Of a DNA stretch of 64,000 bases, positions 57,414-62,751 are shown in pieces (positions within the stretch are counted from its first letter, which is position 1; each line of letters begins with the position of its first letter). The DNA lies in the NCBI RefSeq assembly GCF_002214805.1, contig NZ_CP019914.1:2914001-2978000 (forward strand), read 5' to 3'. Source of the DNA: Brachyspira hampsonii (lineage in GTDB: Bacteria; Spirochaetota; Brachyspiria; Brachyspirales; Brachyspiraceae). Below the pieces are notes generated by a model. The model was not told the origin of the DNA, made no database searches, and saw only the letters and a program-made list of their open reading frames with translations. A program made the translations under genes and the position numbers.

Positions 57414-58406
57414 TTACTGCTTAGCCAATTCTACAGTGCTTCCATCTGGTTTAGTATATATAGCTGTTGTTTTATCATCATTGAATGTGATTTTATGATC
57501 TATTTTTTCTATTGCAGCATCATTTGAAAATAAAATCTCTGATATGGTTAAATTATTATTATTCATTATTTCAGAATGATAGTTGCCTTCTTTCATAGTG
57601 CTGATTGTAGCAATATTTTCTTCTACTTGCAAAACTATATCACCTGATGAATATGTTCCTAAATAAGGAGTAAATAGATCTGATTTAATTAATTCATAAG
57701 AATATTCTTTTCCATATATAAAATCTATTTTATATATTATTTTATCTTTTTCTAATTCATAAGACATTATAACCTTTTCATTATTATTGTCATAATGTTC
57801 TGATTTTAAGACATTATCTTGTAATGTGAAAGTCATTCCTACATTTGTCATCCCTTTATATCCGTATATATTACCTTCTTTGTCTATTAAAATAGTATAA
57901 TTTTTAGTTTTGATTTGACCATTAGTATCGAAAGTTGGTATATAGTAATTACCAGTGTATGCTCCCAATTCTTTAATTTTATTTATTACTATGTAGTCTT
58001 CATCAGGAATATTAAAATCTTCTTTATCAAAAATATTTTTTCCGCTGAATTTTATATGATCATCAAAAAGATTAACTTCAAGTATTGAATATATTTGATT
58101 ATATGTATTACTTAACTGAGTGTTTCCATTAATATCCATTAACAATGAATTTTTTGATAAAGACAAATTAGTTATTGGATTTTTATCTTCTCCTATGTAT
58201 ATATTTCCATTTTCTATTCTAAATACTACATGAGTGTAGCTTCCATTTGTAAATTCATGTTCATGATAATATCTGCCGTCATATCCTTTTAGAAAGTTTG
58301 ATATTTCTACAGTATCTGTTTTTATTTCTTTGTTATTATTACCTGAACATCCGATAATAAATATAATCATTACTAATGATATAATTAATAAAAATTTTTT
58401 AATCAT
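57414..58406 (-). CDS. Lipoprotein, tandem paralogue
   Basis: 330 residues. A lipoprotein signal (MIKKFLLIISLVMIIFIIGC, Cys20) is followed by a beta-rich body and a C-terminal motif FNDDKTTAIYTKPDGSTVEL. The next upstream gene ends FNDDKSKAVYTKPDGTTVEL and shares NFLKGYDGRYYxxxE-like and YLGTYSSGDI/YSGIYKSADS segments, so the two are tandem duplicates that have diverged. The function is unknown; surface exposure is possible. Confidence 0.75.
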   Translation of the reverse strand: MIKKFLLIISLVMIIFIIGCSGNNNKEIKTDTVEISNFLKGYDGRYYHEHEFTNGSYTHVVFRIENGNIYIGEDKNPITNLSLSKNSLLMDINGNTQLSNTYNQIYSILEVNLFDDHIKFSGKNIFDKEDFNIPDEDYIVINKIKELGAYTGNYYIPTFDTNGQIKTKNYTILIDKEGNIYGYKGMTNVGMTFTLQDNVLKSEHYDNNNEKVIMSYELEKDKIIYKIDFIYGKEYSYELIKSDLFTPYLGTYSSGDIVLQVEENIATISTMKEGNYHSEIMNNNNLTISEILFSNDAAIEKIDHKITFNDDKTTAIYTKPDGSTVELAKQ

Positions 58407-58501: not shown

Positions 58502-59569
58502 TTAGTATCTATTTAATTCAACAGTTGTACCATCTGGTTTTGTATATACTGCTTTACTTTTATCATCATTAAATACAAATTTATGCACTTTTGTACCTGT
58601 TTTTGAAGAATACTGATATATAGTTAAAGTATTTCCAATGATAACAGGTGTATAGCTATATGTTACAGTATTTAATTGAGCATCAGTAGTTGTTATTGTT
58701 AAAGTTATGCTGCTGTCTGCTGATTTATATATACCGCTATATGGGCTAAATAGATTATATTTTATCAAAGCCTCATACTGTAATTGATTATTAATCCAAG
58801 TATTACCAAATATTAATTTATAATCTTGATTTTTGTCTTTATCATAAAAATGAAGTTCTTGTCTGCTTGAAGTGCCTCCTGTTTGTTTATATGTTATTAT
58901 TAATACACTATTACTTAATTCTACTTTTGAATAGTTGATTTTAAAATTATCATCCATATACACTTGTCCGGCTGTATCTATAAGTATATAATATTTTTTT
59001 GTGTCATCATAATCATAATAGTAGTAGTTTCCAGAATAAGTTATCAATTCTGACATAGGTTCTCCAATTAATGTACTATATCCGCTTGTTTTTTGATAAG
59101 CTTCTTTATGAAATATAGCATTGGCAAAAAGATAAATATTTCCGTCGCTTCCGAAATTAAAAGTATACATTTCATCATTCATTTCATATCCTAAATTAAC
59201 ACCAGATCCGCTTTTTTTACCTTCTATGTATATTTGAAGTTTATTTCCCAATAAAGTTTTCATTGTTGCTTCAACTTTTGTACCATATCCATTATATATT
59301 GAATCGCTGTCTATTATATATCTAAGCCCAAGACTGTTATCATCATATCTGGAATAATAAGCCCCATTATGATTTTTAATAAATTCAGATATTTGTCCCT
59401 GATCTGTTATTATAATTTCTGATGATTGGGAATTAGGTTTTGCAGTAGGATCTATAAAACTTCCGTCTCCAATATCAACTTCATTTTCAGGATTAGGGTT
59501 TGTTATTGTTGCTGAACAATTTAATATTAATAGAGATATAAATATTGTTAATAAAATTTTTTTATTCAT
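58502..59569 (-). CDS. Lipoprotein, tandem paralogue
   Basis: 355 residues, lipoprotein signal MNKKILLTIFISLLILNCSA with Cys18. It is beta-rich, with FIKNHNGAYYSRYDDNSLGL, ITYSGNYYYYDYDDTKKYYI and the C-terminal KPDGTTVELNRY shared with the downstream paralogue. A 95-base gap separates the two genes. The function is unknown. Confidence 0.75.
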   Translation of the reverse strand: MNKKILLTIFISLLILNCSATITNPNPENEVDIGDGSFIDPTAKPNSQSSEIIITDQGQISEFIKNHNGAYYSRYDDNSLGLRYIIDSDSIYNGYGTKVEATMKTLLGNKLQIYIEGKKSGSGVNLGYEMNDEMYTFNFGSDGNIYLFANAIFHKEAYQKTSGYSTLIGEPMSELITYSGNYYYYDYDDTKKYYILIDTAGQVYMDDNFKINYSKVELSNSVLIITYKQTGGTSSRQELHFYDKDKNQDYKLIFGNTWINNQLQYEALIKYNLFSPYSGIYKSADSSITLTITTTDAQLNTVTYSYTPVIIGNTLTIYQYSSKTGTKVHKFVFNDDKSKAVYTKPDGTTVELNRY

Positions 59570-59852: not shown

Positions 59853-59881
59853 TTGACATTATTTTTTTATTATGCTATAAT
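59853..59881 (+). promoter_or_regulatory. Perfect consensus promoter of the riboswitch-ATPase transcript
   Basis: TTGACA (59853-59858), 17-base spacer, TATAAT (59876-59881) with a TG-C extension just before the -10. Transcription would start near 59888, about 12 bases before the aptamer. Confidence 0.9.
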
Positions 59882-59899
59882 ACTTATAACATAATCAAA

Positions 59900-60000
59900 T
59901 ACTCATGAGGGAGTAATTGGCGTATTTTACGCGGCAAAGCCAACATCGCAGCTCTTAATTAGTAGAGTTTGGTTAGCCTTAATTAATGAGACTCAAGTAT
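59900..60000 (+). promoter_or_regulatory. Probable yybP-ykoY (manganese) riboswitch aptamer
   Basis: TGAGGGAGTAA at the 5' side and ATGAGACTC at the 3' side match the two conserved internal-loop strands of the yybP-ykoY class, closed by a P1 of TACT-(CA)-TGAG with CTCA-AGTA. Between them lie a short hairpin (GCGTA-TTT-TACGC), GGCAAAGCCAAC, and a further hairpin (CTCT...AGAG). The 3' strand of P1 is shared with the terminator stem at 59990, a standard expression platform. The downstream P-type ATPase is a known target type. A covariance-model test was not possible here. Confidence 0.75.
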
Positions 60001-60068
60001 AAATAAATCTTTAAAGATTAGTATAATTTTCTATTCTTTGATGATTTATTTATACATGAGTCTTTTTT
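59990..60068 (+). terminator. Riboswitch expression-platform terminator
   Basis: 20-base arms 59990-60009 and 60043-60062 pair with about one mismatch and are followed by T7. The 5' arm overlaps aptamer P1, so ligand binding should prevent this hairpin and turn the gene on. Confidence 0.85.
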
Positions 60069-60114
60069 TATGCATTTTTTAATAATTAGAAAATAATTAA
60101 ATGAGAGGTAGTTT

Positions 60115-62751
60115 ATGAACGGTTTTTTAGGAAGAAAAGATGATATTCTTAAAACGCTTAATGTTGATCCTAAAATTGGATTAAATGAAGAGGGAAGAAA
60201 GGCTAGTTTTGAAAAATATGGTGCTAATAGTTTTACTAAAGAAAAAGGTGCTAGTTTGATTCAGAAAATATTAGAATCATTGAAAGAACCTATGATACTT
60301 ATGCTTATATTTGCAGGTATTATAGCAATAGCTGTAAATACAGTTGCATATTTTAATGGAGGACATGCTGACTTTTTAGAATGCTTAGGTATATTTTTGG
60401 CTATAAGTTTGTCTATAACAATTACAATAGTTATGGAAGGTAAAAGTGCTAAGGCATTTGAAGCATTAAATAGTATTAATGAAGATATTAGAGTAAAAGT
60501 TATAAGAGACGGAAATATAGAAATAATTAATCAAAAAGATTTGCTTGTTGGAGATATTGCATTTATAGAAACAGGAAATAAACTTCCAGCTGACGGCAGA
60601 TTATTAGAAAGCGTATCATTAAATATAGATGAATCAGCTTTAACAGGAGAAAGCGAGCCTGTAGAAAAAGATGCTGATGCAATACTTACAGATGAAAAAA
60701 CTCCAGTGGCTGAGAGAATAAATATGGCTTATTCAGGTTCATTTGTTACCACAGGCAATGGTAAAATGATAATTACATCTGTAGGCGATGCAACAGAGTT
60801 TGGTAAAATAGCTAGAGAGCTTTCTAAAACTAAAAAGACTTCTACACCTTTACAAGAAAAACTTGCTCAGTTGGGAAAGAGAATAGCGACATTTGGTATA
60901 ACAGCTGCTGCTATAGTATTTATAATTCAGGTTGTCAATTTCATAAGAACAGGTAATGCTAATTTTACTACTATATCAGAGGCATTCATTACAAGTATAG
61001 TATTAATTGTAGCTTCTGTTCCTGAAGGACTTCCTACAATAGTTGCTGTTTCACTTTCTATAAATATCATAAAAATGGCTAGGCAGAATGCTTTAGTAAA
61101 AAAGATGGTAGCTTGTGAAACTATAGGAAGTGTTAATGTTATTTGTTCTGACAAGACAGGTACTCTTACAGAAAATAAAATGACTTTAAATAAATTATTT
61201 GCTAATGGTGAATATATAGATCCGGAAAATATAAAAAATGAAAAGATTATAAAAAACTTTGCTATTAACTCTACAGCAGATGTTGATTATAAAGATAATC
61301 AGGCTAAGTTTTTAGGCAATCCTACAGAATGTGCATTACTAGTGGCTGCAAGTAAGTCCGGATTTAATTATAAAGAGATAAGAGAGAAATCAAAAATAAT
61401 ATATGAATATCCTTTCTCATCAGAAACTAAAAATATGACTACTGTTGCAAAAATAGATAATGAAACTATTGTATTTACAAAAGGAAGTCCTGAGAAAATA
61501 ATGTCTATGTGCAGTATTAGTGATGATGAGAAAAAAGGTATTGAAGATGCAATAGAAAAATTCCAAAATGAAGCTAAAAGAGTAATAGCATTTGCTCACA
61601 AAATAGCAGATGATAATGTTGAAAATAATAGAGAAAAACTAGAAAGCAATATGATATATGACGGATTTGTAGCAATATCCGACCCTGTTAGAAAAGAGGT
61701 TTATGATGCTGTTGAGCAGTGCAGAAGTGCTGGAATAAATATAAAAATGCTTACAGGCGATAACATAGTAACAGCAACTGCTATAGCTAGAGAGTTAAAA
61801 ATACTTAATGAAAACAGCATTGTTCTTGAGGCAAAAGATATTGATGCTATGGACGACAGCACATTAAAACAAAATTTAAGCAAGATATCTGTTATAGCAA
61901 GAAGCACACCTACAGTAAAAATGCGTGTAGTTAATGCTATAAAAGAGATGGGGAATGTGGTTGCTGTTACAGGAGATGGTATCAATGATGCTCCTGCTAT
62001 AAAAAATGCTGATGTAGGAGTTGCTATGGGTATAACAGGTACTGAAGTATCAAAAGAGGCCAGCGATATAGTTCTTCTTGATGATTCATTTGCTACTATA
62101 GTAAAAGCAGTTCAATGGGGACGCGGAATCTATGATAATTTTCAGAGATTTATACAGTTTCAGCTTACAGTTAATTTAGCTTCTGTAGTAGTTGTTCTGA
62201 TTTCTACATTAACAGGTTTAAAATCTCCATTTTCTGCTATACAGTTGTTATGGATAAATATTATTATGGATGGACCTCCTGCTATAGCTTTGGGACTTGA
62301 GCCTATAAGAGATAATTTGATGAAAAGAATGCCTACAAAAAGAAATGCAAGCATTGTAACTAAAAAGATGATATTTAAAATAGTATTTTCAGCTGCTGTT
62401 ATGATAGTATTATTTATGCTTCAAAGCAAATTAAATATACTTAATGTTACAGAGGCAGAACAGTCTACAGTATTATTTGCTATGTTTGTAATGTTCCAAA
62501 TATTTAATTCTTTCAATAGCAGAGAGTTGGGATTTGACAGTGTATTCAAATATTTCCTTAATAATAAATTAATGCTTTTAAGTATGGGTATTACTTTTAT
62601 ATTACAGATATTAGCAACTCAGTATGCTGGCGGATTCTTTAATACTGTGCCTTTAAGTGTAAATACTTGGCTAAAAACTATAGGAATTGCCCTTATTGTT
62701 GTTTTAGCTGCGGAGATTTTTAAAATATTTACCAGAATGGTGAAGAGATAA
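60115..62751 (+). CDS. P2A-type cation-transporting ATPase (probable Mn2+/Ca2+ exporter)
   Basis: 878 residues. TGES at 177-180, PEGLP at 303-307 (M4), DKTGTLT at 346-352 with phosphorylated Asp346, TGDNIVTA, GDGINDAP at about 621-628, and M6 residues N715 and D719 (WINIIMDGPPAIALG), equivalent to SERCA metal ligands. It belongs with PMR1/SERCA-type pumps, which move Ca2+ and often Mn2+ out of the cytoplasm. The upstream yybP-ykoY-like riboswitch argues for manganese export under excess Mn2+. GAGAGGTAG gives the ribosome site. Confidence 0.93.
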   Translation: MNGFLGRKDDILKTLNVDPKIGLNEEGRKASFEKYGANSFTKEKGASLIQKILESLKEPMILMLIFAGIIAIAVNTVAYFNGGHADFLECLGIFLAISLSITITIVMEGKSAKAFEALNSINEDIRVKVIRDGNIEIINQKDLLVGDIAFIETGNKLPADGRLLESVSLNIDESALTGESEPVEKDADAILTDEKTPVAERINMAYSGSFVTTGNGKMIITSVGDATEFGKIARELSKTKKTSTPLQEKLAQLGKRIATFGITAAAIVFIIQVVNFIRTGNANFTTISEAFITSIVLIVASVPEGLPTIVAVSLSINIIKMARQNALVKKMVACETIGSVNVICSDKTGTLTENKMTLNKLFANGEYIDPENIKNEKIIKNFAINSTADVDYKDNQAKFLGNPTECALLVAASKSGFNYKEIREKSKIIYEYPFSSETKNMTTVAKIDNETIVFTKGSPEKIMSMCSISDDEKKGIEDAIEKFQNEAKRVIAFAHKIADDNVENNREKLESNMIYDGFVAISDPVRKEVYDAVEQCRSAGINIKMLTGDNIVTATAIARELKILNENSIVLEAKDIDAMDDSTLKQNLSKISVIARSTPTVKMRVVNAIKEMGNVVAVTGDGINDAPAIKNADVGVAMGITGTEVSKEASDIVLLDDSFATIVKAVQWGRGIYDNFQRFIQFQLTVNLASVVVVLISTLTGLKSPFSAIQLLWINIIMDGPPAIALGLEPIRDNLMKRMPTKRNASIVTKKMIFKIVFSAAVMIVLFMLQSKLNILNVTEAEQSTVLFAMFVMFQIFNSFNSRELGFDSVFKYFLNNKLMLLSMGITFILQILATQYAGGFFNTVPLSVNTWLKTIGIALIVVLAAEIFKIFTRMVKR

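Follow-up and report, generated by a model that had tools for sequence, protein, structure and literature searches.

The window analysed here is a stretch of 64,000 nucleotides from the closed, 3.19-Mb genome of Brachyspira hampsonii. On its plus strand, a promoter, an RNA aptamer and an intrinsic terminator precede the gene of a P2-type cation-transporting ATPase (Table 1). Two adjacent genes on the minus strand (57414–58406 and 58502–59569) encode putative lipoproteins that are 30% identical to each other and have no Pfam match.

Table 1. Features of the riboswitch leader and its gene, in window coordinates.
Feature	Position	Strand	Details and basis
Sigma-70 type promoter	59853–59881	+	TTGACA 59853–59858, 17-bp spacer, TATAAT 59876–59881, extended -10; 12/12 consensus matches
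yybP-ykoY Mn2+ riboswitch aptamer, P4-less (three-way junction) form	59896–60005	+	R2 match, MFE fold, pairing in 24 species
P1 5' strand, AUACU(CA)UGAG	59899–59909	+	Pairs with 59992–60000; alignment pairing, RNAalifold, MFE fold
L1 5' strand, GGAGUA, sarcin-ricin-like loop	59910–59915	+	Invariant in 24 Brachyspira species and 61 relatives; role of the loop from PMC6754395
P1.2 5' strand, AUU	59916–59918	+	Pairs with 59985–59987; register uncertain, RNAalifold offers a shifted one
P2 hairpin, GCGUA-UUU-UACGC	59920–59932	+	Compensatory GC/AU and UA/CG changes
P3.1 5' strand, GGC-AA-AGCCA	59933–59942	+	Pairs with 59970–59978; Brachyspira and R2 alignments
L3 metal-sensing loop, ACAUCGC	59943–59949	+	Third base A59945; R2 alignment and the L3 sequences in PMC6754395
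P3.2 hairpin, AGCUC...GAGUU	59950–59969	+	Compensatory changes at two pairs
Junction linker UUAAUU, in the position of helix P4	59979–59984	+	Invariant in 24 species; P4-less relatives have similar linkers
L1 3' strand, GAGA	59988–59991	+	Invariant in 24 Brachyspira species and 61 relatives
P1 3' strand (switch strand), CUCAAGUAU	59992–60000	+	Also part of the terminator 5' arm
Intrinsic terminator	59990–60069	+	Stem 59990–60062, T7 60063–60069; -33.6 kcal/mol, z -8.9
P2-type cation-transporting ATPase, PMCA-type by NCBIfam; predicted Mn2+ (and/or Ca2+) exporter	60115–62751	+	ORF of 878 aa; NCBIfam, Pfam, PDB relatives

A preliminary description of this DNA had proposed a consensus promoter, the paired strands of a yybP-ykoY aptamer, and a terminator whose 5' arm takes up helix P1, all in front of a PMR1/SERCA-like pump. 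The three leader elements are borne out. The promoter agrees with the consensus throughout, and the related leaders have a promoter of this type in the corresponding position. The two strands characteristic of the class read GGAGTA (59910–59915) and ATGAGA (59986–59991), and the minimum-free-energy fold of 59896–60003 is the expected aptamer structure. The 5' arm of the terminator (59990–60011) contains the complete 3' strand of P1, and therefore P1 and the terminator are mutually exclusive, as is required of an aptamer strand that doubles as part of the expression platform. The terminator is conserved, with compensatory changes at 9 of its pairs among 24 species. A simple terminator scan returned none here, its rules (loop of 3–8, short G-C-rich stem) being unsuited to a long AT-rich stem; a simple aptamer pattern likewise gave no match, as the gap allowed in the pattern was too short. 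Matches to miRNA families at 59988–60064 were dismissed as spurious, for they correspond, on both strands, to the AT-rich and near-palindromic terminator.

We compared the leader across 26 Brachyspira genomes, that of the window included. It occurs as one copy per species in 24 species, each time directly upstream of the same pump; wherever the start of the pump is intact (24 genomes), the leader is present. Of the other two genomes, one (G010; 2.0 Mb, 99% complete) has neither pump nor leader, and one (G006) has a fragment of the pump only, at the start of a contig. The alignment of the 24 species supports one common structure, consisting of P1 with L1 (GGAGUA/GAGA), P1.2, P2 and the P3.1-L3-P3.2 leg. 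Standard pairs fill 98.2% of the pair cells, with compensatory changes at 4 pairs; when the partners were slid against each other as a control, only 25–41% were paired. RNAalifold, run unaided, returned nearly the same fold. The elements by which the class is known from crystal structures are mostly in place: both strands of L1, without variation, and an L3 that retains the sensing adenosine between P3.1 flanks agreeing with the GUCA/UGGC of the class (GYCA-ACA(A)UCGC ... UGGY). The four-way junction with P4 is missing. In the alignment, the P4 hairpin is absent from 24 of 24 species, the invariant UUAAUU running from P3.1 directly to P1.2, which makes the junction three-way and not four-way as in the crystal structures (PMC6754395).

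The preliminary description had suggested scoring 59895–60005 with the Rfam yybP-ykoY model. Within the window RF00080 had no match up to E=10, and it gave no credible match across the 26 Brachyspira genomes. Hence one half of what had been named there as counting against the proposal, the lack of a covariance-model match, did occur with this model. The calibration of RF00080 is of note. With a cut-off of 45, the validated mntP switch of E. coli falls just short at 44.9 bits, from which we conclude that the cut-off is tight; at that cut-off the model found none of the 11 P4-less loci tested and 3 of the 5 longer forms. Since the mntP control was just missed, and the P4-less set was missed as well, the negative result is not proof of absence. 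It reflects insensitivity of the model, not absence of a riboswitch. The Brachyspira element falls short of a gathering cut-off that is a detection threshold and not a biological feature.

Two further covariance models were built. R1, derived from the Brachyspira leaders only, finds eight distant spirochaete leaders, which also are devoid of P4 and whose L3 is the canonical ACAUACU or nearly so. Read from their translations, the genes that follow these leaders encode MntP in six cases and GDT1/UPF0016 in two. RF00080 reaches six of the eight below its threshold (best 30 bits, E=1.4e-4). R1 gave no match to E. coli mntP, and for this reason it was replaced in the membership test by R2. A pattern scan of genomes, with L3 fixed as ACAUACU and short junctions favored, yielded at least 117 leaders. 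Judged by length with a simple rule, about 75 of those listed have a short junction without P4, mainly in Clostridia, and among these listed matches 66 of the 75 precede MntP. Because the scan fixed L3 and favored short junctions, these counts show that leaders without P4 are common, but give no measure of their share in the class. Two of the 75, one from an erythrobacter (L118) and one from a sphingomonad (L128), were probably misclassified and were left out of R2. P4 varies within the yybP-ykoY class. We did not treat it as defining, because it is absent also from most of the at least 117 pattern-matched leaders, which precede mntP. A literature search for a three-way-junction form of yybP-ykoY returned no paper that, judged by its title, was evidently on such a form.

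The 61 P4-less leaders that went into R2 include none from Brachyspira, and the structure of R2 shows compensatory change at 11 pairs (120 cells) among these 61 relatives. R2 matches the window at exactly 59896–60005, with 56.5 bits and E=3.3e-13, nearly the same stretch as the one named in the preliminary description. Its matches to three RF00080-positive loci and to E. coli mntP (E=3.4e-5) link the P4-less leaders with the Rfam family; a model of sequence plus structure thereby establishes homology of the Brachyspira element to that family. One might still argue that the locus holds no riboswitch at all, and that an inverted repeat rich in A and T, in which the motifs arose by chance, serves simply as an attenuator or as the terminator of the upstream region. 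The silence of RF00080 and the long near-palindromic terminator, which draws spurious miRNA matches, would fit such an account. It is refuted by the R2 match, unless R2 were a generic AT-rich model; R2 returns a single convincing match per genome in 24 of the 26 Brachyspira genomes and no other convincing match in the 26. Conservation and compensatory change in 24 species, and the restriction of the element to the pump gene, also speak against this account, and we accord it next to no probability. The element at 59896–60005 is a yybP-ykoY (Mn2+) riboswitch aptamer of P4-less form, the class membership that had first been proposed from its two strands now being upheld by independent models, covariation, gene context and genus-wide co-occurrence with the pump.

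Three observations on related leaders are recorded here. A clostridial-type P4-less leader (L156, 5107–5212) lies directly upstream of a Na+/Ca2+ exchanger family protein (PF01699), and a spirochaete P4-less leader (L192, 1501–1603) directly before an open reading frame (1629–2768) that by resemblance belongs to the same exchanger family. This suggests that Na+/Ca2+ exchangers found after P4-less Mn2+ riboswitches are further candidate Mn2+ exporters. The L3 of L192 is ACAGACU in place of ACAUACU, so that L3 varies outside the sensing adenosine. Downstream of a leader with a longer junction (L159), at a distance of about 880 bases, is a P-type ATPase 33% identical to the pump of the window.

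The solved structures show Mn2+ contacted by phosphates of the backbone and by the N7 of one invariant adenosine of L3. This adenosine is the third base of the loop, which reads ACAUACU in X. oryzae and UCAAUUC in L. lactis (PMC6754395). A59945 aligns with it (A41 in L. lactis, A48 in X. oryzae). The Brachyspira loop reads ACAUCGC or ACAAUCGC and keeps the sensing adenosine; outside of it the loop differs from that of most relatives, yet no more than the L. lactis loop does. An aptamer that lacks P4 and has an altered L3 might have shifted from Mn2+ to another divalent ion, such as Cd2+ or Co2+. The constancy of ACA(A)UCGC in all 24 species, where the relatives mostly have ACAUACU (in the set of at least 117 leaders, L3 was fixed by the pattern), would agree with such a shift. 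However, the Mn2+ contacts are made by the backbone and by the N7 of the retained adenosine, the L. lactis loop is just as divergent and senses Mn2+, and the P4-less relatives control Mn2+ exporters. A changed metal preference is not indicated, and we regard the shift as improbable. The same low expectation attaches to a broader version, by which the genus-specific features of the aptamer (no P4, L3 of ACA(A)UCGC, a split P3.1) would change its selectivity or affinity for metals in keeping with a pump of the PMCA type; if true, one member of the class would be adapted to another divalent ion.

The gene downstream does encode a P-type cation ATPase, as had been anticipated, with the catalytic motifs DKTGTLT, TGES and TGDGIND. 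The PMR1/SERCA label requires a change, because among the NCBIfam Ca2+-pump equivalogs only that of the PMCA type is above its cut-off (TIGR01517; 696.8 bits, cut-off 507), PMR1 and SERCA being below theirs. P-type ATPases under Mn2+ riboswitches have been described in L. lactis and in C. difficile (CD2503), and protection against Mn2+ has been reported for the L. lactis enzyme (PMC11477304). None of the 26 Brachyspira genomes has MntP or GDT1, and TerC is missing from that of the window. On the strength of the riboswitch upstream and the lack of these three exporters, export of Mn2+ is predicted, and by analogy with the L. lactis and C. difficile ATPases the pump likely performs it. One CDF efflux protein, encoded elsewhere in the window's genome, could also export Mn2+. 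The family assignment leaves room for another account, in which the riboswitch senses Mn2+ but the main cargo is Ca2+, or Ca2+ together with Mn2+, induction then mainly protecting the calcium balance or serving both ions. In keeping with it, the score exceeds the cut-off of an equivalog for PMCA-type Ca2+ ATPases, and in an alignment the motifs of M4 (PEGLP), M5 (TVNLAS), M6 (NIIMD) and M8 (FQIFN) match those of the plant Ca2+ pump ACA8. Yet leaders related to this one govern dedicated exporters of Mn2+, both MntP and GDT1 are lacking in Brachyspira, and the pumps found behind riboswitches of this class in L. lactis and C. difficile are P-type ATPases too, with protection against Mn2+ reported for the former. 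We consider this account unlikely, though transport of Ca2+ is conceivable, and retain Mn2+ export as the predicted function.

For the L. lactis switch it is established that Mn2+ stabilizes P1.1 and prevents termination, P1.1 and the terminator being the alternatives (PMC11087558). The arrangement in Brachyspira is that of the L. lactis switch, on account of which an ON response to Mn2+ is predicted. Without Mn2+, the 3' strand of P1 would pair with the downstream sequence to form the terminator, and transcription would end before the pump gene. Binding of Mn2+ between L1 and L3 would bring the legs to dock, the docked aptamer would retain the 3' strand within P1, and the terminator could not form. 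Readthrough would then allow the pump to be made and Mn2+ to be exported. The membership of the aptamer, its structure, the strand shared by P1 and the terminator, and the genus-wide linkage to the pump are directly supported by the data, while we infer that Mn2+ is the ligand as well as the cargo, and in which direction the switch responds. As a whole, the locus very probably holds a yybP-ykoY riboswitch without P4 that responds to Mn2+ by switching on transcription of a P2-type cation ATPase. Counted against this explanation are the missing Rfam match, the absence of P4, an L3 of ACA(A)UCGC and not the usual ACAUACU, the proximity of the pump to characterized Ca2+ pumps, and the CDF protein.

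The assignment provides a regulator and a likely substrate for a pump that automatic annotation would label a calcium ATPase. In Brachyspira, which does without the usual exporters MntP and GDT1, the pump becomes a candidate for manganese export. At its cut-off, RF00080 in its present version passes over a P4-less form that is common before mntP in Clostridia and in some Treponema-like spirochaetes, and for that reason the yybP-ykoY class is probably under-counted.

The Brachyspira leader adds a member to an established riboswitch class, and its form, without P4, is overlooked by the reference model. A close parallel is the yybP-ykoY riboswitch upstream of yoaB in L. lactis, with which it shares the L1 and L3 cores and their invariant adenosine (PMC6754395), a P1 strand held in common with an intrinsic terminator (PMC11087558), and a P-type ATPase downstream (PMC11477304). 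The L. lactis RNA has a four-way junction with P4 and an L3 of UCAAUUC, whereas that of Brachyspira has a three-way junction with the UUAAUU linker and an L3 of ACAUCGC. The P4-less leaders of Clostridia and Treponema-like spirochaetes before mntP have the same UGAG-GGAGUA...GAGA-CUCA core, P2, the P3.1/L3/P3.2 leg and a UUAA-rich junction devoid of P4. Unlike the Brachyspira leader, they control MntP, GDT1 or occasionally a Na+/Ca2+ exchanger, their P1.2 is usually GCA/UGC, and their L3 is ACAUACU. The E. coli mntP riboswitch belongs to the same aptamer class and is found by R2, but it has P4 and controls MntP, in a manner described as translational and Rho-linked (PMC11647493). The pump itself resembles the PMCA-type Ca2+ ATPases and Listeria LMCA1 in domain architecture and metal-site motifs. 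Those enzymes have been studied as Ca2+ pumps, whereas the regulatory context in Brachyspira predicts Mn2+.
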